Source of the DNA: Linanthus parryae
Taxonomy: Eukaryota > Streptophyta > Magnoliopsida > Ericales > Polemoniaceae
NCBI GenBank assembly: GCA_023055425.1
Contig: JALGPY010000001.1
Location: 139,649,368-139,713,367, forward strand
Direction: 5' to 3'
Length of the DNA: 64,000 nt
Numbering within the stretch: the stretch's first letter is position 1; each line of letters starts with the position of its first letter. The position numbers and the translations under genes are program-made. Positions 23,301 through 45,815 of the stretch are shown one piece after another. The notes under the pieces were generated by a model. It ran no database searches, was not told the origin of the DNA, and saw nothing but the letters and a program-made list of their open reading frames with translations.

Positions 23301-24620
23301 CGGAGAACCTTCAGGTAACCATTTGAGCGATATGCATGTACTAGACCTGAGCAACTTGAAACAGAATCATGACTGGTTTCTTCGCATCCCAGGTCACGCT
23401 CCTTTTAAAGACTTGCTTAATGAGGACACACTAATAGGACATGGTTCCACGTCTTTAGTGTATGACGAAGATACATCAATCCCACCCTCGCGTGGAGGTG
23501 CTTGCTCTTAGCTTTAGCAAAGATAGTAAAATATCATTCAATGCGAGTTACCTCATACCATCGCATTTTGTGTCGCAGGCAATGCTGAGGAACCTGCGCT
23601 GGAGCAGAGAAGTCAGCCTTCTGCGTCCTACGTTCCGATTCCGAGCCCCCATACCGAGAAGCCCGTCGCAGCTACTGGACACGCAGATGAGCCTCTCGAG
23701 GACATCATCGAACTTTCCGATGATGCTGAAGCTGATGCTGTGCTAATGGATGAAGATGCCCATATTGGTGCTGAGGAAGTAAGGACAAGTGCTGCTGATG
23801 CTTCCGCATCTGAGAGCGTCCCTCGCCAAGCGGCTTCGGCTGTCACTTCGCCTCCGGCGATGACTGAGTCGGTGGCACCTCTTCCTGCGTGGAGCTTTTG
23901 GGGCTCGCAGGTTGGGAATGCAGTCGCAGCTGGTGCGGCCTATACTCTTCCTCCTGACTACGAGAGGTTAGAGCTCGCGGCTGACAGGAGAGCTATGGAG
24001 CGAGGACAGTCTTCGACCACCCCGGCAGCGCGCATTCCTTCTCTTCATGAGATTCTGGAAGGAACTGGTAAGTAGAGATTTACTGTTTGCATCTCGCATT
24101 ATTCACTTGCGAGTTTGTCATCATGACTTGGCTTTGACATTGCTTTAGGTTTGAAGCAAACTGATGTGGACTGGGTGGTTCGGATGCGCCTCACCTACCC
24201 CCAATCGTTTGTGATCTGGAGATAGGGCCCTTCGACAGGAGGCTGTTTCTTACTGAAGCCATTTGGATTTTGGAACAGCTGTCTGCGGCTACGCCTGCGA
24301 CTATTTCTGTCCAAAGTGCTGAATTGCTTTGTGGCATGTGCCAAAATCTCCTGACCAAAGTTCAAGGCAGGCTGGGTTTCAGATTTCTCATGAAAAGAGT
24401 TACTCTGATTCGCGCAGCCGTAACTTTGAAGCTCGGCCACCAGAACCTCGCAGCCGAGAAGCAGAAGGTGGAGCAGCAAAAGCAAAAGGTTGACGAAGCT
24501 CTGAAGCTCTATCATGAGATGAATGCCAGGTGCGAGCAACTGAAACAAGAAGTGGAGCAGGTAGAGAAGCTGAGCCATCAGTTCGCGCCCCATGACTCCT
24601 TGATCAAGAATTTGCTTTGA
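20325..24620 (+). pseudogene. Antisense five-exon PMD/DUF7745-like gene, outer copy (disabled)
   Basis: Exons by comparison with the intact inner copy are 20,325-22,205, 22,284-22,764, 22,841-23,497, 23,579-24,067 and 24,149-24,620, all introns GT-AG. Exon 1 (627 codons, no stop) has the PMD-like part (THTFHFAEFEAAPTLEDV; FVQKLDYMDEW). Exons 2-3 are Pro/Ser-rich, then acidic and coiled-coil with a KRQKR basic patch. Exon 4 has DIIELSDD, and exon 5 is a Gln/Lys/Glu-rich coiled coil. Two lesions separate it from the inner copy: TAG at 22,674-22,676 where the inner copy has CAA, and a 4-bp deletion at about 24,212 that shifts exon 5. It lies on the strand opposite to gag-pol of its element. Confidence 0.8.
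22206..22283 (+). other. Intron 1 of the antisense gene (outer copy)
   Basis: GAG|GTAAGC donor and TTTGCTGTAG acceptor, phase 0. The same intron in the inner copy is at 36,978-37,050. In-frame stops inside it show that it must be removed to join exons 1 and 2. Confidence 0.75.
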
Positions 24621-24721: not shown

Positions 24722-24726
24722 CCCGT

Positions 24727-25351
24727 TGTAGATACTGCTTTCTGACATGACAGATCTTGGCCACGTGGCAAACATCCAGCACACCATATTGTGCTCCACA
24801 CACACTGGATCACCAGCCGAGCTGATCCATGTGGGGGCTGCGAGACAGAGCCCTCGCATACCACTGCACGGGACTTGTAGGGACTTAGTGGCTTGGAGGC
24901 TAGAGTAAGCCCTGTCGCGTGCGAGCCAAGCCCGCACGCGACTTTTAGTAACTGTTTTGAGAGATCTATGGCACGAGCTCCCTAGACCCGCAATCCGGTC
25001 AAACCCGGTCAACCTCATAACGGTTCCGGTATTCGCGCACCACGTGCTCTAACGGTCCCTATATACTCGGACGAACGTGCCGTTATGGTTAAGCTAATTA
25101 AGCCGCCATCAATGGGCGCATTAACCACACTACAACGGTCACGTTCTCCAGTATATATAGATCGTCAACCTTTCCATACAAAAAAAGAACGCATTGCCAT
25201 ACGCGGAAGCTCTGCCAAACCTCTGTCTCTCTCTCAGACATTGCTACTGACTTACTCTCTCCCTACACACACCCCTACTCTTCCTGTGCGATCCTTGATC
25301 CACTACGTACGGTGTACACGGAGGTCTCCCTGCCGGAATCTCTTGTGCACA
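24727..25351 (+). repeat. 5' LTR of inner Tat element
   Basis: 625 bp, from TGTAGATACTGC to TTGTGCACA. A TATA box, TATATATA, lies at about 25,152-25,159 and is the likely promoter for genomic RNA. The 3' partner lacks a 7-bp CAATCCG-type segment near 24,990. Confidence 0.95.
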
Positions 25352-25354
25352 TTT

Positions 25355-25373
25355 TGGTGAACCCGACGTGAAC
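25355..25373 (+). other. Primer-binding site of inner Tat element
   Basis: TGGTGAACCCGACGTGAAC starts four bases after the LTR; TGG pairs with the CCA end of a tRNA. The same 19 bases lie at 55,394-55,412 (minus) in the outer element. I do not assign the tRNA species. Confidence 0.75.
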
Positions 25374-25391
25374 TTACCAGCAAAAGCAACC

Positions 25392-28004
25392 ATGTCTCAG
25401 GAGGATGATGTCAGCAACCGATCGCCTTCCACCGAAACTCCCTCGGGAGACGAGACCCGCCGTACTCCGACGACTCCCGGCGAAGCACCGACGTTAGAGT
25501 CTTTGGACGCTACTGTCCAAAGTCAGGCGAAAGCTCTCAAGTCTCAATCTGCGCAATTAGAACGAATCTTGGCCGTTCTGGGCACCCTTGCGCCAAATCC
25601 TCCACCAGCCACCGCTATCCCTCAGGGAGGAGGAACCCCTACCGCTCCAGGATTGGGAGTGTCAGCCACACCTCCCAATCCTCATCTGCAGACTCCACCG
25701 TCGGCTACGCAGCTGCCTTCAGTTCAGGGGTCAACGGCACAGATGCTGCCTCCTGCTGCTCACGCCTCTCAGCCCTCGGCTTTGGCGTCCAACCCAACTC
25801 TGCAGTACACTCTGCCTCCACCAACGACGATCTGGGGAAATGCGGGTAGCCAATATGCTCCCAATCCTCCGGCGGCGTACGTGTCGCCACCGCCTACGGC
25901 AACCCCTCCGTCAATTACCGAGGGGAGCATTCCAGAATGCATGACGTCTTTGCAAAAGCGCGTGGACACCATCCTGGCTCATCAGTCATTCGCGGATACC
26001 ATTATCCCGAAGTTAGACAACGATCCACCCATTCCACGAGAGATCTATCTCATGCCTAACCCGGCGGGGTACAAGGCTCCGAAATGGGATAAGTTCGAGG
26101 ACGTCAATGGAAACGCTCATGAGCATGTCATGCGTTTCATTGATGTCATGGGTCCGTACGGAGCCGATCCCAAACTGCTGATGCGAGAGTTCCCAAAATC
26201 CCTTGGGAACGTAGCATACAAATGGTACCGAACATTGGAGGCCGGATCCGTGAAGACTTGGGACGACATGGTCCAGAATTTCTATACCAAGTTCTTCCAG
26301 ATGGAAGAAAAGGTGACGATGATCCATCTCTCGCGGATGTACCAGAAGCGCGAGGAGGACGGAATCACCTTCATTAAGAAATTCAGGGCGAAATCCTTGG
26401 AGTGCAAAGATCCAATGCCCGAAAGCCGTCTCGTAGAGATATGCCTACAGTGCATGCGAGATGAATACAAAGGTATGCTCATCAATCTGCAAACACCTAC
26501 GTTTTCAAAGCTAATCGAATGCACGAAGAACATCGAGCCCATAGTCGAGAGACAGAAAAAGAAGAGCGCTCCAGAGCGACCTGCGAGCGGCACCACTTAC
26601 AAGATCGGGAGGTTTAGCTACAAGCGGGGACGCGAAGCTGAGGTCAATACAGTTTCGCCCCAGAAACAAGCAAGGGTTGCGAACTTCGATGTACCGCCTC
26701 TGCCATGCTCGGTAGAGGAAGCAAGTGACCTCTGCAAACAGTGGCGCAAGGACGGCGTCCTGCCACCGCCCGAGAAAACACCCTCCAAGGAGATGGTGAG
26801 GGACCCTAAGTGGTGTGAGTACCACGGCAAGATCATGCATCCCACCGCCGAATGCAAGAAACTCAGGTTCGCGTTCGATCAGAAGATGAAGAACGGCGAG
26901 CTAATCGTCAGCGACAACAGGAAAGACGTGCGCAACAACCCGCTTCCTGCCCATACAGAGTCAGGCTCGAAAGGCAAAGAGGTCGCTATGATCTCGATCG
27001 TCGACTTGGAAGAAGTCGCAGAGGATGGCCTGCCCATCGTTGCCGAGGTCCATGAAGACGAAGACTATAGCATGGACACAGAGGATGAACGTGCCGACCG
27101 CATGAAAGGGTCGCATGGCTTCAACAAATTCTTCGATGAAATGAATTTCTCCGAGAAGTGCCGGACTGATATGACAAAAGCAATCTTAAGGATAGCGGAG
27201 GACTACGAGGAGGACCTCGTGGTCTCCAACGGGAGAGTCATCAGGGCGTCTCGTTCCACAGAAAAGATCATGACCTTTTCTGCCAGCGACAAGAAGACGG
27301 ATGCGAGTCATCATAGGCCTTTGTACGTGACCGCCATCATCAACGGCGTCGAATTCAAGCGAGCATTCGTCGATGGAGGAGCAGCGGTTAATGTTGTTCC
27401 ACTCCACACACTGAAGCTAGCAGGGATCCCCGAGCACAAGGTAGTCAAGCGTCCATCTCCACTGGTGGGATTCGGAAGCGACTCTAGAATGACGATCGGA
27501 TGGATCCGCCTGGGCGTCCAGATTGGCAAGATCAAGTGATCGGCGAAGTTCTATGTCATAGACGCGAACACCACATACCACATGATTATAGGTCGAGCCT
27601 GGATTCATCGCTTCGACGCAGTCCCTTCGACGGCTCACCAGGTTATGAAAGCTATCTGGAACGACAGAATAGTCGAGATACCGGCTTCGACTAACCCGTT
27701 CAACTTGGACGAAGCACATCTCAGCGAGGCGGTGTGGTTCACTGAGATGGCGGACGAGCAAACACCCGGGCCATTCAACCCTACTCCTTTGCCTCTCTGG
27801 GAGGACATCAAGGACCAGTCACCTGCGGGCGTGATGGTGACAAGGGAAGATGCCAAGGAAAAGCCGCCTACACGCGAAGAGGCGCCACGTATCGCATATC
27901 ATCGAAAGAATGTGTACACTTTGAAGAGGATCGCAAAGCATGACCCCGAGGGCAAGGAGATAGAGAGCTTCTACGCCAATGGGAAGAAATGCTATCGCAT
28001 ATGA
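25392..28004 (+). CDS. Gag-protease polyprotein of inner Tat element (one internal TGA)
   Basis: I take ATG 25,392 (MSQEDD) as start because the outer copy begins the same way and upstream codons belong to the primer-binding site. The N-terminus is Pro/Ser/Thr-rich. The gag core spans about residues 250-370 (REFPKSLGNVAYKWYRTLE; TWDDMVQNFYTKFF). A zinc-knuckle variant reads WCEYHGKIMHPTAEC. The aspartic protease has VDGGAAVN with the Asp at residue 661 (27,372), then IIGRAWIHRFDAVPST. The TGA at 27,537-27,539 interrupts the protease, and the same frame continues to a second TGA at 28,002-28,004. The first looks like a CGA-to-TGA mutation. Gag packages RNA and the protease matures the particle. 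Because of the internal stop, full Gag-Pro would need readthrough. Confidence 0.85.
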
Positions 28005-28016
28005 AGGTGCGCGGGG

Positions 28017-31000
28017 ATGTCCTCACACGGGCATGGGGATGTCCCTGGGCAAATCAATCAAATCGAACAAGTTGCGCTGAAGGAAGAGCCAACACAAGGC
28101 ACTCCAGACGAGAAACTCAAAGAAGCGCCTGAATGCATGGAAGACAGGCCAAGACCACAAAAGCAAGAACTAAAGGAAGTGTTCCTTAGCCCGAATGAGG
28201 AAAAGAAAAGGCCAGTCTTCCTGAGTGCGGACCTCACAAGCGAAGAGGAACAAGGACTGCTACAGCCCCTAACTGAATACAAAGACGTGTTCGCATGGGA
28301 GTATGATGAGATGCCAGGTCTGGATACAAGCATCACCATGCATCGTTTAGACATCATCCCAGGGTCTAAACCGGTCAAGCAAAGCACCAGAAGCTTCAGG
28401 CCAGAACTCAACGTGAAGATCAAGCAGGAGATTGTCAAACTCCTAGATGCCAAGTTCATAGAGCCGAATCATCATCCCACATGGCTGGCCAACATCGTGC
28501 CGGTGGTGAAGAAGAACGGACAGCTCCGCATCTGCGTGGACTTCCGAGATCTCAATCGCTTCTGCCCTAAGGACGATTTCCCACTGCCCAACATCGATTT
28601 GCTTATCGATTCAACAGCAGGCCATCGCATGTTCAGTTTCATGGACGGTTTCAGCGGGTACAATCAAATCAAGATGGATCTCGAAGATGCGCAGAAAACT
28701 GCATTCATCACTCCTGTGGGGGTATTCAATTACACGGTGATGCCGTTCGGTCTAAAGAACGCGGGCGCGACCTATCAGCGGGCCATGATGGCTCTATTCC
28801 ACGACATGATGCACAAAGAGATGGAATTCTATGTGGATGACCTGGTGGTTAAATCCAAGCACGAAGCGGATCACCTTGCGGACCTGCGAAAGGTGTTCAA
28901 CAGATGCAGGAGCTTTCAACTGAAAATGAACCCCATGAAATGCGCGTTCGGCGTGACTTCGGGGAAGTTCTTGGGATGTGTAGTTCATCGCCAAGGGATC
29001 GAGCCTGACCCTGCGAAAGTGTCAGCCATCACCAGCATGACGCCACCCCACAACCAAAGTACCTTGAAGACATTCTTGGGAAAACTGTCATATCTACGGA
29101 GATTCATCCCAGCAATTGCAGAAATCACATGCTGTTTCAGCACTCTTCTCAAGAAGGACGCCGCGTACAACTGGGCTCCGGACCACGAAGCCGCATTCGA
29201 AAAGCTGAAAGAGCTACTCACGTCCTCAAAGATAATGATCGCGCCTCAACTGGGATCACCGCTTCTGCTATATCTTACATCAACAAGGAGATCTATAGGA
29301 GCACTCTTGGCTCAGGAGTATGAAGGCCAAGAGAGGCCCATCTACTATATCTCTCGCATTGTGCAGCCTGCTGAATCAAGGTACACAGACATCGAACGTC
29401 ATTGCCTTGCTTTATTCTTTGTGATAGAGAAGTTGAGACACTATTTTGCATCACACAAAGTAGTGGTGGTCACCAAGAGCGACCCCATAAGATATTTGCT
29501 AAATCACACTACTCCGGGCGGGAGATTGGCGAAATGGTACATGACCATCTCTCAATACGATATCACATGCGTGAAACCAAGAGCGATCAAGTCGCAGGCG
29601 GTAGCGGATCTGTTGGCACAGTTTCCCGACAACAGCCACGAACCCGTGATCGAAGAAGAGCTCGAAGGCCCTGAAATCTACGCAATCGACGTGCCCTATT
29701 GGACCCTCCACTTCGACGGTTCGTCAACCAGAAAAGGCGGAGGCATTGGGATAGTCTTGACAAAGCCAGACGGGGAAGTCATACAGATGTCCGCAAAGCT
29801 CAACTTCGCAGTCACGAACAACGAGGCGGAATACGAGGCCCTCATCGCGGGACTCCGTGCGGCGAAAGCTTTGGAGGTGAGCAACTTAACGGTCATGGGA
29901 GATTCCAAACTGATTGTTAAGCAAGCCTCGGGCGAATATGGTTTAAAGGAGATCAACCTCCTGTCATACCGCACCCTAGTACAAAAGCTGATGCAGCAAT
30001 TTTGCGATGTGAAATACGAGCACAAGCCCCGAGCGGACAACAGGCACGCAGACGCCTTAGCAACCTTGGGATCTAAGGTCAGCATAGACAAATGCCCCGC
30101 AAGGATTTCCATTGAAGTACGAACATCGTCGGCATTAACAGAAGATGCGTGCGACGACGAACACATGGATGACGCAGACTGGCGGAAAGCAATCCTGCAA
30201 GCTATTGCGAAAGGCACCAGCAACAAAAGCTGGGCACTCACAAAAGGGTACTGCATCCACGACAATACCCTTTACTACAAGGGTCCTGGAGGAATACTCA
30301 TGCGATGTGTCTCCGAGCAAGAGGGACAACAGCTGTTAGAAAAGATTCACCAACACGCTTGCGGAGAAAGCGAGGTGTCAATCTACAGAAAGGCTCAGAG
30401 ATATGGCATTCATTGGCCAGGCATGTCAACAACTGCAGCCCTGATACAAGGGAAGTGCGAAAGTTGCGCACTAATCAAAGACTCTCTACTCGTCGCCCTA
30501 ACCGATGACGACACGGACTGGAGGAAGCCACTGTTTGATTTCCTCACCCAGGGCACCGTGCCCGAATCGAGAAAAGAAGCCGAAAAATTGAAAAGGAAAG
30601 CGTCTCGATACGTGGTACAGGAAAACCTGCTTTGGCGAAGAGGTCACGAGGGCAACTTGCTGCGATGTCTAGATGGCAGAGAAGCACAAGAAGTTATGGA
30701 CCTTTCTCATCAGGTGGAACACCAAGGAGGTGCGAAATTATGCAGACAGCTCCTCTCAATCGGATATTTCTGGCCCACGATGGAAGTCGATTGCCGCACC
30801 AAAGTGCGACGCTGCCAGGAATGCCAATTCAAAGGAAACCTAGTGCACGCTCCCGCCGTGGATCTACATGCATTAGGGACGCCATGGCCATTTCACACAT
30901 GGGCTCTGGACTTCATCGGTCCCATCCGACCGACGTCGCATGGGAACCATTTCATTCTCATCGCAACCGAGCTGTTCACCAAATGGGTGGAGGCAATACC

Positions 31001-31742
31001 ACTGAAGACGGCAAACGCGCTGGCTGTGGTCAACTTCATCCAGGAATGCATCGTATGCAGGTTCGGAATCCCAAATACCATTCTTTCAGATAACGGTACT
31101 CCTTTTGTTAATCGCCAGGTAGCTGCAAAACTAGCGGAGTACAATATCAGGCAGATATGCTCTACCCCTTATTACCCAAAGGGAAACGGACAAGCCGAAG
31201 CGACTAACAAAACGCTGTTGAGAATTCTGAGCAAGATGGTCGCAGACGACCACAAGAAGTGGGCCGACTCCCTAAGTATAGCTCTGTGGGCCTACCGAAC
31301 TTCTCCAAGGACACCCACAGGGGCCTCGCCATTCCTACTATGTTATGGGGCCGAAGCTGTAGTACCTGCGGAGGTTAGAGTCAATTCGGCAAGACTGGCC
31401 TTCCATGCACTCTATGAAAATCAACGCGATCATGACTTAGTCTTGCTGGAAGAAAAGCGAGAACAAGCTAAAAGAACCAACAAGCGATACCAGGAAAGAA
31501 TCACTCGCGCCTACAATAAGACAGTCCAGCGAAGAGATTTCGCAGTCGGAGACCTGGTCTTGCGCGCATCTGACCACTCTATGCGGGAAGCAACTCACCC
31601 AAAGTTCGCAGCTAATTGGGAAGGACCCTTCGAAGTCACAGAAGTCTTCGATAGTGGCTACTGCAGCATACGAAGGTTGCACGGCACAACCTCAACTCCG
31701 AGTTCAGTCAACATGCGCTGGATCAAGAAGTACTATCCCTGA
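28017..31742 (+). CDS. Pol polyprotein of inner Tat element (RT, RNase H, second RNase H, integrase)
   Basis: 1,241 codons with no internal stop. RT covers about residues 90-330, with FYVDDLVV (Asp 274/275). The first RNase H, about 390-500, has LYLTSTRRS where the first catalytic Asp is expected, so it is probably inactive. A second plant-type RNase H, about 560-690, keeps Asp 567, Glu 603, Asp 629 and Asp 679. Two related zinc-binding modules follow (718-820 and 831-935). The integrase core has Asp 965, Asp 1025 and Glu 1061 with the D-35-E spacing. Pol is in the same frame as Gag-Pro, separated only by TGA and four codons. It converts genomic RNA to DNA and inserts it. The second copy is at 42,597-45,416. 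Confidence 0.95.
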   Translation: MSSHGHGDVPGQINQIEQVALKEEPTQGTPDEKLKEAPECMEDRPRPQKQELKEVFLSPNEEKKRPVFLSADLTSEEEQGLLQPLTEYKDVFAWEYDEMPGLDTSITMHRLDIIPGSKPVKQSTRSFRPELNVKIKQEIVKLLDAKFIEPNHHPTWLANIVPVVKKNGQLRICVDFRDLNRFCPKDDFPLPNIDLLIDSTAGHRMFSFMDGFSGYNQIKMDLEDAQKTAFITPVGVFNYTVMPFGLKNAGATYQRAMMALFHDMMHKEMEFYVDDLVVKSKHEADHLADLRKVFNRCRSFQLKMNPMKCAFGVTSGKFLGCVVHRQGIEPDPAKVSAITSMTPPHNQSTLKTFLGKLSYLRRFIPAIAEITCCFSTLLKKDAAYNWAPDHEAAFEKLKELLTSSKIMIAPQLGSPLLLYLTSTRRSIGALLAQEYEGQERPIYYISRIVQPAESRYTDIERHCLALFFVIEKLRHYFASHKVVVVTKSDPIRYLLNHTTPGGRLAKWYMTISQYDITCVKPRAIKSQAVADLLAQFPDNSHEPVIEEELEGPEIYAIDVPYWTLHFDGSSTRKGGGIGIVLTKPDGEVIQMSAKLNFAVTNNEAEYEALIAGLRAAKALEVSNLTVMGDSKLIVKQASGEYGLKEINLLSYRTLVQKLMQQFCDVKYEHKPRADNRHADALATLGSKVSIDKCPARISIEVRTSSALTEDACDDEHMDDADWRKAILQAIAKGTSNKSWALTKGYCIHDNTLYYKGPGGILMRCVSEQEGQQLLEKIHQHACGESEVSIYRKAQRYGIHWPGMSTTAALIQGKCESCALIKDSLLVALTDDDTDWRKPLFDFLTQGTVPESRKEAEKLKRKASRYVVQENLLWRRGHEGNLLRCLDGREAQEVMDLSHQVEHQGGAKLCRQLLSIGYFWPTMEVDCRTKVRRCQECQFKGNLVHAPAVDLHALGTPWPFHTWALDFIGPIRPTSHGNHFILIATELFTKWVEAIPLKTANALAVVNFIQECIVCRFGIPNTILSDNGTPFVNRQVAAKLAEYNIRQICSTPYYPKGNGQAEATNKTLLRILSKMVADDHKKWADSLSIALWAYRTSPRTPTGASPFLLCYGAEAVVPAEVRVNSARLAFHALYENQRDHDLVLLEEKREQAKRTNKRYQERITRAYNKTVQRRDFAVGDLVLRASDHSMREATHPKFAANWEGPFEVTEVFDSGYCSIRRLHGTTSTPSSVNMRWIKKYYP

Positions 31743-31975
31743 CTTCTCTCATTTCATACGTTCTATGATAACGTTGTTTAATGTCTCATGTGGCTATGAT
31801 TTACGCAATCTCCTCTCCCATATGAGAGGATTGTAATATCATCTCTCCCATATGAGAGCATTGTAATAAAAGAATTCTCCCAAATGAGAAGTTCACATTT
31901 CTAGCTGTTTATGTTGCTCTATTCAGTTTGTTATTACTTTTAGCAATGGTTTATTCGCCGCAATAGCAATCAATG
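31743..31975 (+). other. Pol 3' untranslated leader to the array, with small hairpins
   Basis: Three related motifs, CTCTCCCATATGAGAG-like, at about 31,812-31,890 are each followed by TTGTAATA or similar. AATAAA at about 31,866 could be a polyadenylation signal for pol transcripts. The mirror copy at about 42,450-42,530 keeps the motifs. Confidence 0.5.
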
Positions 31976-31979
31976 CAAA

Positions 31980-33135
31980 CGCGATCTTAAGTGATCATCT
32001 AAGCCTATCTCTTACGATAGCAGCCAATACAATGCGATCTTAAGTGATCATCTAAGTCTATCTCTTACGATAGCAGCCAATGCAATGCGATCTTAAGTGA
32101 TCATCTAATCCTATCTCTCACGATAGCAGCCAACGCAAATGCGATCTTAAGTGATCATCTAAGCCTATCTCTTACGATAGCAGCCAACGCAAATGCGATC
32201 TTAAGTGATCATCTAAGTCTATCTCTTACGATAGCAGCCAATGCAATGCGATCTTAAGTGATCATCTAAGCCTATCTCTCACGATAGCAGCCAACGCAAA
32301 TGCGATCTTAAGTGATCATCTAAGCCTATCTCTTACGATAGCAGCCAACGCAAATGCGATCTTAAGTGATCATCTAAGCCTATCTCTTACGATAGCAGCA
32401 AATGCAATGCGATCTTAAGTGATCATCTAAGCCTATCTCTCACGATAGCAGCCAACGCAAATGCGATCTTAAGTGATCATCTAAGCCTATCTCTTACGAT
32501 AGCAGCAAATGCAAATGCGATCTTAAGTGATCATCTAAGCCTATCTCTCACGATAGCAGCCAGTACAAATGCGATCTTAAGTGATCATCTAAGCCTATCT
32601 CTCACGATAGCAGCCAATGCAAATGCGATCTTAATTGATCATATGAGCCTATCTCTTACGATAGCAGCCTGTACAAATGGGATCTTAATTGATCATATAA
32701 GCCTATCTCTTACGATAGCAGCCTGTCTAAATGCGATCTTAATTGATCATATAAGCCTATCTCTTACGATAGCAGCCTGTACAAATGTGATCTTAATTGA
32801 TCATATAAGCCTATCTCTCACGATAGCAGCCTGTCTAAACGCGATCTTAATTGATCACTCAAGCCTATCTGCTACGATAGCAACTTATATGCAAAGTGAT
32901 TTTAGTTAATCATCTAAGTCTATCTGTTACGATAGCAACTTATATGCAAAGCGATTTTACTTGATCGCTCAAGCCTATCTGTTACGATGGCAACGCATGC
33001 GCAAAATGATCTTATTGGATCTTCTAAAAGTCTATCTGTTGCGATAGCAGCTTATGCGAGAAACAATCTCAAGCAATTCTCTAATAAAGCCTATCTGCCA
33101 TGATAGCAATTCGCACTACTTAACGATCTTAATTG
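31980..33135 (+). repeat. 54-bp tandem array in the 3' UTR of inner Tat element
   Basis: About 21-22 units spaced 52-58 bp apart. A typical unit has GCGATCTTAAGTGATCA, then CCTATCTCTTACGATAG (a CTATC/GATAG hairpin), then CAGCC and a short variable part. Units are most alike at 31,980-32,640 and decay to the right. The outer element has a shorter array of a diverged variant at 41,590-42,395. Such arrays between pol and the 3' LTR are known in Tat/Ogre elements and can seed satellite DNA. Confidence 0.95.
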
Positions 33136-33839
33136 ATCTGCAACATTGTGGAAATGATCGTAAATGATCCACAATGGCCAACCACAAGCCCATCTGCCGG
33201 ATGGCACAGCTGCGAAGATACGATCTCGATCGATCTAGTGAAACACCCGCGAATCGATATATCGCAGATGCGAAACAATTACACAGCACTATGCAAGGCG
33301 AAATATGCCGGAACGCATGCGAAATTGTATTTTGTTGTAAAGAGACAGCATATAATACAAAAAGGCTATTTATCATTATGAGTCAAATGACTTACAATTT
33401 ATCTGTCTAGATAGCAGCTTACAAGCGAAAAGCTCAAATCTAACTACGCAGCCAACATGGCTTACAATACATTCGAAAAATGGCTGACAAGCCAGAGACA
33501 CACTAGGGAACTCCCGACTAAGAAAAAGAGGAACCCACCGGTCCTGACACCGGCAGTGCAACACGCAGATCTGCGGCCAAAGATCTATAGCAAAAGGGAT
33601 GTTGCCGCGAAGAGATCAACTTGTCATTCGCTACATCCCTAGCAGCAAGATCGGGGATGCGATACGCCCAAGACCCCAAGGAATGACAAGAGCCTCTGTC
33701 TGATCAAGATAGGCGCCGGAGGAGCTTCCTGTGCCGACAGATGCTACTCTGCAAAACAGGTGAAGCAGTCATTCCTCTGGTGATGGACCCCTTGTCATGT
33801 TGGACAAGGGCATTGACGAGCACCCCGAGCTCACAAATG
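33136..33839. other. Tat family-specific non-coding region (inner)
   Basis: Conserved in opposite orientation with about 40,925-41,590 of the outer copy. It contains hairpin pieces related to the array at its left end. No reading frame is kept in both copies over more than a short stretch. It may be the 3' part of the small antisense transcript. Confidence 0.5.
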
Positions 33840-34178
33840 TCAGGGCGACGGAGCCTTCTCCAGGGATGCTGAAGAAGAATTCCGCCGTTCATTACGAGAC
33901 AGTAGCACGGTCACTTCGGCGCTGCACCTCGCCACGAGGCGGCCGGAAACATGACCTGCACACATAATACACGAAGAAATTTCTTCGAACACACGTGAGA
34001 TATTATCTGCATCTTCTTTATGATGGTTATAAAGAGCAATAAGCCTCATAAAGTGGATCTTGGAAACTATTTCTATAGCACAAAGCGCAAACTCAGGATT
34101 CAAAACTTGAAGTTGCCATGAATCAACGAAAAACAAGCGTTGAAGCCAGTGGTCGTAAGGACTCACGGCAAAGCACAT
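33840..34178 (-). CDS. Small antisense ORF behind a TATA box (inner copy)
   Basis: 112 codons from ATG 34,178 (MCFAVSPYD) to 33,840. The outer copy at 40,576-40,923 has a homologous ORF of 115 codons. The two align without frameshift through MCFAVSPYD.WLQRLFFVDS, NPEFALCAIEIVSKIHFMR, IALYNHH.ED and AGHVSGRL. I recognise no family. A TATA box lies 36-43 bp upstream in both copies, so an antisense transcript with a very short leader is plausible. A TTGCAG acceptor-like site before GTCATG (outer 40,794-40,799) leaves open that the C-terminal part is a separate exon. Confidence 0.5.
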   Translation of the reverse strand: MCFAVSPYDHWLQRLFFVDSWQLQVLNPEFALCAIEIVSKIHFMRLIALYNHHKEDADNISRVFEEISSCIMCAGHVSGRLVARCSAEVTVLLSRNERRNSSSASLEKAPSP

Positions 34179-34213
34179 CTTTGGGACGAAGAACCCAAAT
34201 AACAAACACAGGG

Positions 34214-34221
34214 TTTATATA
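34214..34221 (-). promoter_or_regulatory. TATA box of the small antisense unit (inner)
   Basis: TATATAAA on the minus strand within GGTCTATATAAACCC, 36-43 bp before the ATG at 34,178. The outer copy has the same TATATAAA at 40,534-40,541 with the ATG at 40,576. Confidence 0.6.
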
Positions 34222-34638
34222 GACCCTGTGGAGACTCTTCAATTGCCAAGGATGAGTCAGCAGAATTCAAAAAGAGGGTAAGTTCAATCACTTACGCCTT
34301 GAAAAGCGGTAACAATCAATTACCCTACTAAAGGCTACGACGATTCAGTTGCGTATCCTAATAAATGACGGATGGTCATGATTCGGATGGACTTCCCAAC
34401 AAAAGCGTGCTTATCTGCCGATAAATTAGCGCGAAAATCAAGCAAAGTATCAATTGCTGACGTCATGATTGGATATGCACAAAGATATCCTGTCAAATCC
34501 CGAAAAGGGCAAAACGGGCAAATTCATTGTTCGTTGTTAAAAAAAAAGGGGAGAAACCCTAGCAACATTACATTAATGTTTCAAAACATTACATTAATGT
34601 TTCAGCTATTTCCTTGCTATTTTTCAAAATTCGAAAAG
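34222..34638. other. Spacer between the two antisense units (inner)
   Basis: Conserved with 24,621-24,726 plus 40,242-40,533 of the outer copy. It holds the likely 3' end of the large antisense gene and the upstream region of the small one. A 19-bp motif around ACATTACATTAATGTTTCA is duplicated at about 34,565-34,603. Confidence 0.5.
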
Positions 34639-37600
34639 TCAAAGCAAATTCTTGATCAAGGAGTCTTGGGGCTCGAATTGCTCGCTCAGCTTCTCCACCT
34701 GTTCCACTTCTTGCTTCAGTAGCTCGCATCTAGCATTCATCTCATGATACAGCTTCAGAGCTTCATCAACCTTTTGCTTCTGCTGCTCCACCTTCTGCAT
34801 CTCAACTGCGAGATTCTGGTGACCGAGTTTCAAAGTTACAGCTGCGCGAATCAGTGTGACTCTGTCCTTAAGGAATTTGAAACCAAGTCTGCCCTGGACT
34901 TTGATCAGGAGATTTTGGCACATGCCGCACAGCAATTCAGCACTCTGGACCGAAATGGTCGCAGGTGTAGCCGCAGACAGCTGCTCCAGTATCCAGATGG
35001 CTTCAGTAAGGAATAGCCTCCTGTCAAAAGGCCCGATCTCCAGAGATCTCACAAACGATCGAGGGTAGGTGAGGCGCATTCGAACCACCCAGTCTACATC
35101 GGTTTGCTTCAAACCTAAAGTGATTTCAAAAATGAGTTACGATGTTAAAACTCGCAAGCGAGTAATGCGATGTGCGAACGGTAAAGCTTCACTTACCAGT
35201 TCCTTCCAGAATCTCATGAAGAGAAGGAATGCGGACTACCGGGTTGCTCGAAGATTGCGCCCGCTCCATGGCTCTCCTATCAGCTGCGAGCTCCAACCTC
35301 TCGTAGTCAGGAGGAAGAGTGTAGGCCGCACCAGCTGCGACTGCATTCCCAACCTGCGAGCCCCAAATGCTCCACGCAGGAATAGGTGCCTCTGGCTCAG
35401 TCATGGACGGAGGCAAAGGAACAGCCGAAGTCGCCTGCTGAAGGACGCTCTCGGATGCGAAAGCATTAGCAGCACTTGTCCTTACCTCCGCAGCACCAGC
35501 ATGGACACCTTCATCCATCGGCACAGCATCAGCTTCGACATCATCGGAAAGTTCGATGATATCTTCGATAGGCTCACTTGCATGTCCAGCAGCTGCGATG
35601 GGTCTCTCGGTATGGGAGCTCGGAATTGGAACATAGGACGCAGAAGGCTGACTTCTCTGCTCCAGCTCAGGTTCCTCAGCATGACCTGCGATATTAAATG
35701 CGATGATATGAGGTAACTTGTGTTATAAGTTATTTCGCTATCTTTTACTAAAGCTAAGAGTAAGCACCTCCACGCGAAGGTGGGATTGAGGTATCCTCAT
35801 CATACACTAGGGACGTGGAACCGTGCCCTATCAGTATGTCCTCACTAAGCAAGTCTTTAAGAGAAGCGTGACCTGGGAGGCGAGTAAACCAGTCATGATT
35901 CTGCCTCAAGTGGCTACAGCCTAGTACGTGCATATCACTCAAATAATTACCTGAGGGTTCTCCGCATTTGCCTACCAACCAACGGCGAATGTCAGCCTTT
36001 GACACACCGTGCTTTAACGCACCCACAATAACATCTCTATAAGTTACTGCGAGATTGAAGATATCACCTTTATCGCCACCGGCGATCTCTTCGAAATCCG
36101 CCTGGACTTGCTCCAAGGCCGCTGCATCCTCTCCGGGAACCTCATCTTCCTCCTCCACATGAGGAGCCACTTCTTCGGGAAGCTCGTCTTCCTCGCCAAC
36201 TGGGCGCGTTAAGTCGTCAACATGCTGCTCTTCGAGGCTCCGCTGTTTCACACGCTCGAGCTCCTCTTCCTCTCGCTGCCTTCTTCTTTCAGCAGCCTCC
36301 GCGGCTGTTTTTCGGGACTCAGCAAGAACGTCCTCGCTTATGGGATCATCTGAAATGCCAGAATGGGCATCTCTCTTTTGTCTCTTGGCCACAAGGCCAC
36401 CAACGGTTTCATCATCATCATCTGCGAATACACAATTGGTTCAACGAAAAGAATTGCAAAGAAGTTATGATAACGGGAAAAGAAATGCGACGGAAGTACC
36501 TCCTGATTCTTCCTCGTGCATCACAACTGTTGTTTCTTCTTCTTCATCACTTGCTTGGGGCTCCTGCCTCTCTTCCTCTTCCTCTTGGTTGAATGGAACG
36601 AAAGTCTCAACTGCGAGATCTTTTCGCACTTTGCTGGGCATGCGACATTTGCCTTTGTCCTTGATAGAAAGGGACCTCACTGGGGGAGAAGCTGGAGCAC
36701 TTCTAGGGGAAGAAATCGTAATTCCCTTTTGCCTAGGTCTCTTCACTCTCGGCGCCGCAGTCGCTGGAGGGGACGGGTCATCTCTAGGAGGAGACGGAGC
36801 CGGAGGATTGTCTATCAGCGAGTCGGCAAAAGTCTTCATGACTGCGCGAACCTTTGTTTCGATCTCGGCGTCCATCCTCCATGCTAGCCGGAACGACTCC
36901 CCTTGCCTTCTGGTGGCAACAATGGTGTTAACCAGCGATTTGGAGCGATCACCAGCTGCGAACCTCCGCACATGACACTGAAATAGTGCAGAATGAAAAT
37001 ATCAGCGTAAGGAAATCAAGAAACTTAACGCACGCGAAGAAATTGCTTACCTCAGCAAACGCCTTGCTATATCTGACGACATGCGTGTCGCCCTTCTTGA
37101 TTGCGGCGACTTGCTCCTTCAGAATGAAATCAGGGCACAAATGGTTCTCACGGTCCCACAGTGAGTAGTAACCATACTCAGACTCGCTCAGGCTGCAAGT
37201 GGGGCGAAACGGAAAAGAGTTTCTTTTGATCAAGGGAGCTCTACCTGGCTGCGCCGCCGCCTCCGTCTCAATCCTCGTTTGCTGGGCAACCCAGTATGCG
37301 AGCCAGTTCTGGGAACAACCACCCTCGCGGGTTCCCGCAGGCTGCTCAAAGGGAAGATTGTTCATGAAGACTGTCTTGCACTCCTTTGTCAGCAAGCGCT
37401 TGTAACAGCCTCTGATGATAGACTGGGGCCAGATTGATGGGGCCACTGCATCAAAACCAAACTGAGGAGAAACTCGAGTTGGGTCAACATCCACTGTAAG
37501 CTTTTCATATCTTGGCGCGAGCTCACGAATATGCTCTGCGAGGGCAGGAAGGGAACCTCGCAGACACCAGCAAAAGAACTCACTATAGCGCTCGTGGAAA

Positions 37601-38931
37601 TGCGGCCCCTTTTCAAAGAGAAGTTCTTCTGAGAAGACCATACCTTTGGAGGGGTATAGTTTTGGAAACCATCGTACATTCTCGATACGCGTGGCATAGG
37701 GCCTGGCAGTAAACTCCTTCCGTTTGTCGCATATCAAGCTCCAAGCACACTTGGTGTTGCTTGCTCCAAACCATCTCGCAGCTCTTCCGCTGTTGCGTGC
37801 TTCTGTCTCGCCTGGGGGACACCACTTATCAAGTTGGAGAGCAGTTGGAGCATAAGACGGCCAGCGCTCGAACACCCACATTGTCAAAAAGGAAATATTG
37901 ACAAAGGTCAGAACATCGAGGCGGCCACGCGACTCCCTCATAGCCAGAACCAGCTGATCGAGCCTATAATACAGCGTGCCCAAGACCAAGGGTCCGAGTG
38001 CGACTCTCTGGCCAAGAGCAAGCCTCACAGCAAGTGGCAACACATGGTAGAAGACTCCGTCATGGGGGTGACCATCAATCAAGTACCTCGACAGCCAGGC
38101 ACAGAGAAAAGCACAAAGGGTCAAATGATAACCCTTGCCCTCTACGTAATTCTCGGCCTCCGGGTCCTCACTCAGAAGTTTCTTAGTAATGCTGCTGTTC
38201 GCATAGTCTCGGAAGAAGTACTGCAACCATTTGTTCCAGGTATTCTTCGCATACGTATCAACCAGCTGCCAGTTCAGAAGAGGCTTTGTAGTGGTCCACC
38301 TAGTGGAGATTTTCTTTACCTCTGCTAGGCACTCCTCCATCTGCGTGTACAAGGCAATTTCCGCAGATGTCCTCAAGGGACTCAGAGGGTCCACCTCACC
38401 CATGGGGGAAAGCTCGTACAGCATTTGAACGTCCTCGAGTGTCGGGGCAGCCTCGAACTCAGCAAAATGGAACGTATGAGTCGCAGGCGAGTAACGAGAC
38501 AGAAGATCTAGAAGCATGGATTGATCCAGCTTCACGGCAGCACCCTTCATAGCATGGATAGCAAAGTATACGCCGGCTTCGTTAAGAGTCACGGCGTGAT
38601 GATCCAACACGTGGTCAATCCACTCATCCATATAGTCCAATTTCTGGACGAACGCCTGAGTAGAAATCGCAGTATATGGGAAGTGCCCGTTCTCGATCCC
38701 CAATCGAACTACATCCTCGGAACCAACCAACTCGAGCAAGGCTGAGTTAACTGGGCGAGTCAGCGTCAGCAATCGCTCAACCGGAACAGGATCAGGCATC
38801 CTCTTCGCCTTTACCCTCGCATGGTAGAAATCTTTGCCGCCTAAAAAGGGGGCTTTTCGCCACAAGGCCTGTGGAGGCTCGGGTATCTCTTCATCTTCCT
38901 TGACGGGTCTGGTTACTCTTGTCTTGGCCAT
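34639..38931 (-). CDS. Antisense five-exon gene of the Tat element, PMD/DUF7745-like, intact frame
   Basis: Exons (minus) are 38,931-37,051, 36,977-36,500, 36,421-35,768, 35,685-35,197 and 35,114-34,639. Introns are GT-AG with phases 0, 1, 1, 1; intron 3 has a weak GTGCTT donor. Lengths sum to 3,978 bp, about 1,325 residues with no stop. Residues about 30-480 resemble the plant mobile domain or DUF7745 (THTFHFAEFEAAPTLEDV; ENGHFPYTAISTQAFVQKL), which in host proteins acts in nuclear silencing or is uncharacterised. Next come a Pro/Ser linker, basic patches (RPRQKG, KRQKR), an acidic coiled coil, a helical GALKHGVSKADIRRWLV segment, a SUMO-interaction-like DIIELSDD at about 1,045-1,052 and a C-terminal coiled coil. 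A nuclear protein is inferred. The ATG at 38,931 (MAKTRV) is chosen because the outer copy starts there. Confidence 0.8.
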
Positions 38932-39604
38932 TCCTGCGGAAAAGCAAGAAAAAGGGGGGAGAAATACCACACTTCAGTTTGAATTTTGGAATTCGAGATC
39001 TATGCAAAGGAAAACGAACAGTTCCGGTACCGATTTCAGAAATTGGGGAGTTGCAAGATCCAATATTGTTGAAAGATTAAAACGAAGCGGGTTCAAAGAT
39101 CAAAGCCTCTTCACAAATTCCATGGGTTTACAGATTCAACGCAGTTCAAGGCAAACACTGGTATCTTAAATCAAAAGTAAACAAGGCCAACCTTGTTTTC
39201 TTGAAGCCTGCTTGGATATGCACAATTGAAGAATACGATCTGCAGTTCTGAACTGGTGATTGATTATCTGGATCTGCTCTCGAAGATCTCCGGGTACCAT
39301 TCACTTTAAGAGAAAGAAGTGATGCCTTGCAATAATGGGGGATACAAGGTATTTATCCAAAACAATGAAGGGTTGCGTCCTTTCGATAGTCGAATCGCAA
39401 CCGTCACCGTCGAATCGCGCAATCACAGGACAAGCTGACGTCACGCCTAAAACCCTAAAGGTCAGACGGCACGACTCTAGGGGTTTTAGGTCATAATGAC
39501 ACGCACGGGGGCTGAACTTACCCGTATTTGAATTGGTGCGTGGCGGCGACGCGTATGTTGGTTTCCGCGCATGGAAGTCTATACGGCTATGAGTCTTCAC
39601 GCGC
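38932..39604 (-). promoter_or_regulatory. Upstream region of the antisense gene (inner copy)
   Basis: Counterpart of 19,616-20,324. It carries a TATA-like GATAAATA (minus strand, 39,350-39,357). It sits directly beside the 3' LTR, so the LTR could act as a divergent promoter. No coding frame is kept between the copies. Confidence 0.4.
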
Positions 39605-39618
39605 AGAAAGGGGGCTAA
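39605..39618 (+). other. Polypurine tract of inner Tat element
   Basis: AGAAAGGGGGCTAA immediately before the 3' LTR. Confidence 0.88.
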
Positions 39619-40236
39619 TGTAGATACTGCTTTCTGACATGACAGATCTTGGCCACGTGGCAAACATCCAGCACACCATATTGTGCTCCACACACACTGG
39701 ATCACCAGCCGAGCTGATCCATGTGGGGGCTGCGAGACAGAGCCCTCGCATACCACTGCACGGGACTTGTAGGGACTTAGTGGCTTGGAGGCTAGAGTAA
39801 GCCCTGTCGCGTGCGAGCCAAGCCCGCACGCGACCTTTAGTAACTGTTTTGAGAGATCTATGGCACGAGCTCCCTAGACCCGGTCAAACCCGGTCAACCT
39901 CATAACGGTTCCGGTATTCGCGCACCACGTGCTCTAACGGTCCCTATATACTCGGACGAACGTGCCGTTATGGTTAAGCTAATTAAGCCGCCATCAATGG
40001 GCGCATTAACCACACTACAACGGTCACGTTCTCCAGTATATATAGATCGTCAACCTTTCCATACAAAAAAAGAACGCATTGCCATACGCGGAAGCTCTGC
40101 CAAACCTCTGTCTCTCTCTCAGACATTGCTACTGGCTTACTCTCTCCCTACACACACCCCTACTCTTCCTGTGCGATCCTTGATCCACTACGTACGGTGT
40201 ACACGGAGGTCTCCCTGCCGGAATCTCTTGTGCACA
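39619..40236 (+). repeat. 3' LTR of inner Tat element
   Basis: 618 bp, TGTAGATACTGC to TTGTGCACA, followed by target duplication CCCGT. It differs from the 5' LTR by two substitutions (in CCTTTAG and CTGGCTTAC) and the absence of 7 bp. Confidence 0.95.
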
Positions 40237-40533
40237 CCCGTTTTGCCCTTTCCGGGATTTGATAGGATATCTCTGTGCATATCCAATTATGACATCAGCA
40301 ATTGATACATTGCTTGATTTTTGCGCTAATTTCTCGGAAGATAAGCACGCTTTCGTTGGGAAGTCCATCCGAATCATGACCATCCGTCATTTATTAGGAT
40401 ACGCAACTGAATCGTCGTAGCCTTTAGTAGGGTAATTGATCGTTACCGCTTTTCAAGGCGTAAGTGATTGACCTTACCCTCTTTTCGAATTCTGCTGACT
40501 CATCTTTGACAACTGAAGAGTCTCCACAGGGTC

Positions 40534-41589: not shown

Positions 41590-42395
41590 CACGTGCTATC
41601 ATATCAGATAGACCTTTGTAGATCACTTAAGATCATTTTCACAATATTGCTATCGTAGCAGATAGTCTTTAGTAGATCAATTAAGATCGTTCTTCGCGCG
41701 AGTTGCTATCGTGGCAGATAGGCTTTACTAGATCAATTAAGATCGTTTTTTTCGCATGAGTTGCTATCGTAGCAGATAGGCTTTAAAAGATCAATTAAGA
41801 TCGTTTTTTTCGCATGAGTTGCTATCGCAACAGATAGGCCTTAGAAGATCAATTAAGATCGTTTTTCGCATGAGTTGCTATCGTAACAGATAGGCTTTAG
41901 AAGATCAATTAAGATCGTTTTTTCGCATGAGTTGCTATCGTAACAGATAGGCTTTAGAAGATCAATTAAGATCGTTTTTCGCATGAGTTGCTATCGTAAC
42001 AGATAGGCTTTAGAAGATCAATTAAGATCGTTTTTTGCATGAGTTGCTATCGTAAAAGATAGGCTTTAGTCGATCAATCAAGATCGCATTTGCATAGGCT
42101 GCTATCGTTACAGATAGGCTTAAATGATCAATTAAGATCGCATTTGCATAGGCTGCTATCGTAACAGATAGGCTTTAAATGATCAATTAAGATCGCATTT
42201 GCATAGGCTGCTATCGTAACAGATAGGCTTTAAATGATCAATTAAGATCGCATTTGCATAGGCTGCTATCGTAACAGATAGGCTTTAAATGATCAATTAA
42301 GATCGCATTTGCATAGGCTGCTGTCGTGACAGATAGGCTTAAATGATCAATTAAGATCGCATTTGCATAGATTGCTATTGTAGCGGATAATCCAT
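41590..42395 (-). repeat. Tandem array in the 3' UTR of outer Tat element
   Basis: About 14 units of 54-59 bp. A typical unit, read on the plus strand, is TTGCTATCGTAACAGATAGGC, then a short spacer, then GATCAATTAAGATCG. It has the same hairpin plan as the inner array (CTATC/GATAG) but a different subfamily: the left half shares TTTTTTCGCATGAG and the right half CATTTGCATAGGC. Confidence 0.92.
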
Positions 42396-45416: not shown

Positions 45417-45732
45417 GAAAGTCTCAACTGCGAGCTCTTTCCGCACTTTGCTGGGCATGCGACCCTTGCCTTTATCCTTGACAGAAAGGGACCTCACCGA
45501 GGGAGAAGTTGGAGCACTTCTGGGGGAAGAAATTGTAATTCCCTTTTGCCTGGGCCTCTTCACTCTCGGCGCCGCAGTCGCTGGAGGGGACGGATCATCT
45601 CCGGGAGGAGACGAGGCCTGAGCATTGTCTATAAGCGAGTCAGCAAAAGCATTCATGACTGCGCGAATCTTGGTTTCGACCTCAGGGTCCATCCTCCATG
45701 CTAGCAGAAATGGCTGCTTTTGTCTTCTTGTC
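45417..45732 (-). other. Inverted fragment of antisense-gene exon 2 replacing part of gag-pol
   Basis: About 316 bp that encode, on the minus strand, exon 2 of the PMD-like gene (MDPEVETKIRAVMNAFADSL to VRKELAVETF). It lies between RT and protease sequences of the outer element and is inverted relative to its normal place. It replaces about 1.6 kb (inner equivalents about 27,290-28,918). The sequence is closer to the outer copy of the gene than to the inner one. The junctions share GAAAG (5 bp) and GTCTTCT (7 bp) with both partners. Confidence 0.88.
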
Positions 45733-45815
45733 GCTGGCAGAAAAGGTCATAATCTTTACTGTAGAGCGAGACGCCCTGATGACTTTCCCGTTGGATACTA
45801 CAAGATCCTCCTCGT
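45726..45815 (-). pseudogene. Gag-pro fragment of outer Tat element (left of insertion)
   Basis: About 85 bp matching inner 27,210-27,295 (VVSNG.VIRASRST.KIMTFSASD). It is separated from the rest of gag at 53,563 by the large-LTR element. Confidence 0.85.

Follow-up and report, generated by a model that had tools for sequence, protein, structure and literature searches.

The locus considered here raises the question of why a retrotransposon should carry, on the strand opposite to its own genes, a large gene interrupted by introns, and whether that gene encodes a protein that serves the element. It lies in a 64,000-nucleotide stretch of the Linanthus parryae genome (assembly GCA_023055425.1, contig JALGPY010000001.1, positions 139,649,368 to 139,713,367), referred to as the window, in which a single Tat-type Ty3/gypsy family is represented twice, element 1 being inserted in element 2. 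Between pol and the 3' long terminal repeat (LTR) of element 1, a gene of five exons runs in antisense from 38931 to 34639 on the reverse strand and encodes 1,325 amino acids (aa) followed by a stop codon, including a plant mobile domain (PMD). Judging from the variation among copies of the family, this antisense strand is very probably a coding gene under selection. Tat antisense genes, on record since the 1990s, still lack an agreed function, and the PMD is a domain of unknown function common to retrotransposons and host silencing proteins; one large family here unites both, with a PMD gene in antisense, four introns and measurable selection.

A five-exon gene opposite to pol

For the gene model, GT and AG sites in four gap regions were paired in all 1,008 ways that leave introns of at least 50 nt. 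A single open frame resulted from 10 of these combinations, two of which use the well-scoring donor at 37050, and the longer of the two was chosen, giving 1,325 codons with four GT-AG introns of 73, 78, 82 and 82 nt. The in-frame five-exon structure at 34639-38931 that an earlier note had read from the letters alone is thereby confirmed, as is its statement that the gene is larger than pol, the product exceeding the 1,241-aa pol open reading frame (ORF). The longest frame on the gene strand has 660 codons, whereas none of 200 mononucleotide shuffles produced one longer than 220. The features are listed below, with nucleotide diversity (pi) and the number of copies keeping each site taken from the family sample described in the next section.

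37051-38931 (-): exon 1; ATG at 38931, kept in 29/29 copies; PMD at aa 126-499; pi 0.028
36978-37050 (-): intron 1, 73 nt; GT in 29/29, AG in 29/29; pi 0.090
36500-36977 (-): exon 2; basic patches and acidic stretches; pi 0.027
36422-36499 (-): intron 2, 78 nt; GT in 29/29, AG in 27/29 (two gapped); pi 0.070
35768-36421 (-): exon 3; pi 0.046
35686-35767 (-): intron 3, 82 nt; GT in 29/29, AG in 29/29; pi 0.041
35197-35685 (-): exon 4, the most divergent exon; SIM-like IIELSDD
35115-35196 (-): intron 4, 82 nt; GT in 19/20, AG in 20/20
34639-35114 (-): exon 5; stop codon TGA in 19/20; C-terminus helical and coiled-coil-like (by eye)
20325-24620 (+): copy B, the second gene copy, in element 2; four matching junctions; broken

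A Pfam search bears out one half of the PMD/DUF7745-like domain that had been suggested for the protein: PMD (PF10536) is matched at aa 126-499 with an E-value of 4e-26 and 92.4 bits against a Pfam cut-off of 34.9, whereas DUF7745 (PF24924) stays below its cut-off in the antisense protein (16.8 bits against 26). The basic patches are present, as is one SUMO-interaction-like motif (SIM), IIELSDD at aa 1047, both of which had also been pointed out. With exon 1 as query, neither a PDB sequence search (best E 0.88) nor a protein database search (0 of 8000 scored candidates) gave a match at E 0.001; among viral contigs one stretch fitted a pattern, and confirmed matches were none. An AlphaFold2 model of exon 1, built on a two-row alignment, was discarded at a mean predicted local distance difference test score (pLDDT) of 30.3.

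Copy B lies in an element opposite in direction to element 1. The proposal that both copies use the same introns holds for all four junctions, although the pairwise alignment places acceptor 2 3 nt away. Copy B itself is not intact: its exon 2 contains a stop and its exon 5 has lost 4 nt. Between the two copies the introns diverge by 14-22% and the exons by 11-12%, and this is true for all four introns.

Selection among copies of the family

The host genome (1.51 Gb in 121 contigs) was searched with exon 1, and from 7,016 first-look candidates 40 full-length matches with 96-100% identity were scored, one of them being the window copy. The sample consists of 30 loci, the window and 29 other copies, with 10 of the 40 matches left out, and exons 4 and 5 were compared in the first 20 of the 29. 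All copies were located through the antisense gene itself, and gene-less copies lie outside the sample. Exons 1-3 are free of stops in 17/29 copies, exons 4 and 5 are open in 17/20, and all five exons are open in 11/20.

The clearest sign of selection on the predicted protein is the contrast between variants shared by copies and variants found once. Variants common to several copies comprise 65 nonsynonymous and 155 synonymous changes (N:S) with no stops, and 8:75 in the PMD, compared with 246:221 and eight stops among singletons, 78:84 in the PMD (Fisher p 1e-8 overall and 5e-10 for the PMD). From the base-change spectrum, a neutral N:S of 2.3 is expected among singletons and of 2.0 among shared variants, and the third positions of the antisense frame hold 148 of the 220 shared variants. 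Since the shared variants are mostly synonymous and include no stops, the antisense strand codes for a protein under selection, and the difference in N:S between shared and singleton variants indicates that this selection acts on the protein, among copies that go on multiplying. In exon 4 the shared variants (54:53) indicate weak constraint and in exon 5 (11:56) strong constraint; the singletons of these exons, 156:61 with five stops in exon 4 and 182:54 with 17 stops in exon 5, are probably inflated by frameshifted copies left in the sample.

The ratio of nonsynonymous to synonymous rates (dN/dS) between the two window copies is 0.12 for the whole gene, with values of 0.044 in the PMD, 0.30 in exon 2 and 0.43 in exon 4 (pol 0.036, gag 0.097), and over the 435 pairs of the 30 rows it is 0.151 for exons 1-3 and 0.066 for the PMD. 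A ratio near 1 across copies, named by the earlier note as a result that would count against its reading, is not seen in this sample, and the idea of a gene kept open by selection is supported both by these ratios and by the shared variants.

Indels differ between the two kinds of sequence, with 21 of 28 in exons 1-3 being 3 nt long and 68 of 81 in introns 1-3 and the leader intron (described below) being 1 nt long (shared indels counted once per copy). Divergence from the window over 20 copies is 12.7% in intron 4, 10.2% in exon 4, 6.9% in exon 5 and 2.8% in intron 3. From the kept splice sites, and from introns that are mostly more variable than exons (intron 3 excepted within the family), we infer that the antisense RNA is spliced.

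Several points weigh against the reading of a spliced gene under selection. The singletons are also below their neutral N:S (1.11 against 2.3), constraint is weak in exons 2 and 4, and stops occur within exons 1-3 in 12/29 copies. The diversity of intron 3 within the family is no higher than that of exon 3, and in a rough splice scoring the donors at 36499 and 35767, the leader donor and the acceptors at 36977 and 36421 all score below 4. As the copies used are the best exon-1 matches, the sample leans to young, complete copies near the window's. Lastly, the simple exon dS of 0.43 is about twice the intron divergence of 0.21, so that dN/dS may be underestimated, and for this reason its absolute values are not relied on; set against divergence in the introns instead, dN still comes to about 0.25 for the whole gene and 0.12 for the PMD.

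Promoter, passage through RNA and possible function

Upstream of the ATG, the following features have been recognised.

39436-39443 (-): TGACGTCA site upstream of the antisense gene; identical in 29/29 other copies and in copy B
39348-39357 (-): TATA-like box GATAAATACC; identical in 29/29, one change in copy B
39192-39325 (-): probable leader exon (5' untranslated region); pi 0.020 against 0.042 in the next putative intron
38934-39191 (-): probable leader intron; GT (39191) and AG (38934) in 29/29; raised diversity

The kept TATA-like box and TGACGTCA, which we take to be a bZIP-type site, suggest that the gene has a promoter of its own, a putative antisense promoter just inside the 3' LTR with a leader exon and a leader intron. 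The leader exon is assumed to start some 30 bases beyond the TATA box; the leader acceptor has the best score among those listed, and the leader donor is not among the donors scoring at least 4. The promoter stretch (pi 0.021, including one 60-base block at 0.045) is slightly less diverse than the LTR (0.030). The comparison with copy B shows 4% difference as far down as 39365 and some 14% from there to the ATG, a step which may reflect constraint or recombination. The frame could also begin further upstream, at an ATG at 39300; this N-terminal extension is open in 30/30 rows, but was not called coding, given an N:S of 13:7 and a stop in copy B.

Antisense ORFs between pol and the 3' LTR have been described in Tat/Retand elements (Grande gene23, RIRE2, Retand ORF4 and the PRAREs) as kept in most copies, with tandem repeats in that same region in about half (PMC7264820; PMC11963269), which agrees with the earlier note's mention of such ORFs in some Tat elements such as Grande. 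The window gene is an antisense coding gene between pol and the 3' LTR with tandem repeats nearby, and so resembles these Tat accessory genes; an own promoter has been reported for Grande gene23 (PMC7264820). The proteins differ in their domains, Transposase_28 being present in 97% of Retand clusters (PMC7264820; PMC11963269) and PMD in the window gene. Transposase_28 (PF04195), the domain by which Retand TRP28 is recognised, was absent among Pfam matches up to E 1 in pol and the antisense protein; a genome search for it gave no matches, but its 14 controls gave none either, and absence is thus not shown.

With regard to the PMD, the domain has been found in 57% of Ogre elements (PMC6317226), its clades PMD-A1/A2 are restricted to Gypsy (PMC5418596), and it is the most frequent atypical domain (PMC9289625). 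Gypsy/Ogre elements thus likewise encode PMD, the orientation and introns of the PMD ORFs not being given in the parts of these papers covered. Plant LTR elements are generally intronless, with Ogre and EVADE as notable exceptions (review PMC12786077). A multi-intron antisense gene is not described in the sections of PMC7264820 and PMC11963269 covered, nor do the titles and abstract openings among the literature matches listed mention a multi-intron antisense PMD gene, an earlier description in Gomez-Orte 2013 or Steinbauerova 2011 being possible. PMD in plant Gypsy elements, antisense Tat genes and the idea of counter-silencing are therefore already known; added here are the evidence of selection and the multi-intron layout, which looks unusual.

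In the mechanism that we propose, a promoter of the gene's own, lying just inside the 3' LTR, probably drives antisense transcription, and the introns are probably spliced out of this antisense transcript alone. Genomic RNA, being in sense, would hold the introns as their reverse complement, so that they would be copied unspliced by reverse transcription and survive it, and their presence in both window copies and in the copies examined is consistent with such transfer. Antisense orientation would in this way explain how an intron-bearing gene passes through an RNA stage. The protein may then act in the nucleus on the element's behalf, and a nuclear accessory protein is considered likely. Taken as a whole, a Tat accessory gene with antisense transcription from its own promoter, splicing and nuclear action for the element is favoured with moderate confidence, any anti-silencing step being left out of that judgement. 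Concrete junctions against which RNA data can be set, and a defined protein, are now given.

As to what the protein would do in the nucleus, our first choice is that it interferes with the host's PMD-based silencing (of the MAIN/MAIL1-PP7L type) as a decoy or modifier, making transcription of the element easier. MAIN and MAIL1, which according to the domain description have the PMD in common with the window protein, are host proteins that act in silencing (PMC5418596; PMC7156037; PMC9899485) and favour it (PMC5418596; PMC7156037). That elements might use their PMDs against silencing was proposed earlier, and VANC of VANDAL21 has been named as an element-coded anti-silencing protein (PMC8616336). 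This would-be precedent comes from a DNA transposon and is likened to the window protein by description, not by sequence, and the anti-silencing role drawn from such analogies is put forward tentatively, the earlier note's idea of a silencing suppressor or nuclear-targeting factor likewise staying a hypothesis.

Less probable, and on the whole unlikely, is an accessory role at a later nuclear step, namely bringing the pre-integration complex into the nucleus, or selecting where to integrate by means of the basic patches and the SIM-like motif. We know of no import or integration-site role for the PMD, and the SIM pattern arises in 15% of 2,000 shuffles; yet the basic patches are there, and the core IEL[SC]DD is kept in 22/22 rows, the full DIIELSDD in 14/22. 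The antisense protein of Grande has in addition been reported as nuclear, with a role in import discussed (PMC7264820).

It is improbable that the protein limits its own element by controlling copy number, reducing the harm done to the host by copies with the gene. An antisense promoter may oppose sense transcription, and host PMD proteins favour silencing (PMC5418596; PMC7156037), yet a gene that holds its element back should tend to disappear from the most active copies, and 11 of the 20 copies sampled have every exon open. Far less probable still is that the antisense RNA alone matters, through double-stranded RNA or transcriptional interference, with the reading frame incidental: antisense transcripts can regulate retrotransposons (PMC7264820; PMC12786077), but the third-position and synonymous bias of the shared variants, the low dN/dS of the PMD and the kept splice sites strongly disfavour it. 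A host PMD gene recently captured as a passenger is the least probable explanation, even though PMD is present in host genes and, among the PMD rows compared, the full-length locus L009 stands closest to the family. Identity to L009 is only 31%, the gene occurs in a large family and has the same introns in copy B, from which it is 11% diverged, and its shared variants show selection.

The carrier element and other PMD loci

Element 1 is made up as follows.

24727-40236 (+): element 1, Tat-type Ty3/gypsy, carrying the antisense PMD gene
24727-25351 (625 bases) and 39619-40236 (618 bases) (+): LTRs
24722-24726 and 40237-40241: target-site duplication CCCGT
25368-31742 (+): gag-pol frame; gag, reverse transcriptase (RT), RNase H, RVT_3-type second RNase H and integrase (Pfam)
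31963-32992: internal tandem array of a 54-bp unit

The element is a young insertion, its LTR pair differing by 2 substitutions per 618 aligned bases and one 7-nt indel, and its order is gag, pol (RT, RNase H, second RNase H, integrase), the 54-bp array, the antisense gene and the 3' LTR. The ORFs 25368-27539, 27582-28004 and 28017-31742 are one frame interrupted by two stops (27537-27539 and 28002-28004); the antisense gene of the same element is open. Within pol, RT_RNaseH is matched at aa 414-514, RVT_3 at aa 566-683 and Integrase_H2C2/rve at aa 888-1054 (Pfam). A second RNase H (aRH) in the polyprotein marks Tat, being placed in Ogre and Retand between RNase H and integrase (PMC6317226). 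If RVT_3 is taken as the aRH, which is our own reading, element 1 belongs to Tat, and the antisense multi-exon gene of a Tat element that had been proposed is supported by this domain and by the gene's direction opposite to pol. In Ogre, gag-pro and pol ORFs lie about 274 bp apart, and Ogre and Retand are defined by RT/RH/INT phylogeny (PMC6317226). The single gag-pol frame with two stops is unlike that description of Ogre, and the features of element 1 point both ways, the PMD being typical of Ogre and the antisense ORF and tandem repeats of Retand.

In element 2, a 56-bp tandem array (41594-42389) is found at the position matching the array of element 1, and the two units appear related but diverged when compared by eye. 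A 318-bp piece at 45417-45734, inverted relative to copy B and 98% identical to part of its exon 2 (22344-22661), abuts the cut end of element 2 pol with a 5-base overlap.

Outside the family, six PMD loci of the genome were examined (L010-L015), with flanks covered for L010, L011, L013 and L014. At three places the PMD gene runs opposite to a related pol, which probably belongs to the same element.

C68 (L070 and L013): PMD in two ORFs, opposite to pol
C46 (L071 and L010): PMD in one ORF of 963 aa, opposite to pol
C90 (L014 and L072): PMD in two ORFs, opposite; an integrase piece is the sole part of pol seen

C68 is 42% identical to the window in pol (787 aa) and 23% in PMD (264 aa), and the pol of L010 is 83% identical to that of C68. 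Two or more Tat families of this genome, widely separate from each other, thus probably have antisense PMD genes, as one or two ORFs. A reading of C2 (L069 and L011) as a PMD ORF in sense with gag-pol was withdrawn because its pol is only 36% identical to that of C68, despite 74% identity between the PMDs of L011 and L010, and gag-pol and PMD there need not share one element. A rule by which sense PMD genes lack introns and antisense ones have them also fails, L010 being antisense yet one uninterrupted ORF. No homology was found for a C-terminal domain common to the window gene, L009 and L010-L014 (hhalign probability below 1%).

L009 (C57:122936000-122942000) is a PMD gene found at full length once (1/5 matches), with no match to window gag or pol within 26 kb, and lies about 7 kb from a DHDPS gene. 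Its 31% identity to the window PMD extends over 543 aa, and it groups with the latter (100/99) in a 15-row tree with long branches and a tool warning, in which, of the 13 other PMD rows, it is the one most closely related to the family; it is a candidate for a domesticated or source gene. An arms race, in which the antisense multi-intron PMD gene of the Tat family would block a host PMD silencing complex, and the host would answer with tandem PMD arrays while keeping at least one gene, L009, related to the element's own, is a doubtful extension of the anti-silencing proposal. Dense clusters of PMD matches with many long open frames are seen at C57:126.33-127.71 Mb, C46:154.9-155.9 Mb and C2:29.2-29.9 Mb, holding 46, 14 and 10 of at least 127 matches (matches rather than genes, counted by eye). 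The putative host PMD genes L001-L008 and L009 are 24-31% identical to the window PMD in the aligned part, and the match of L016 covers 48 aa.

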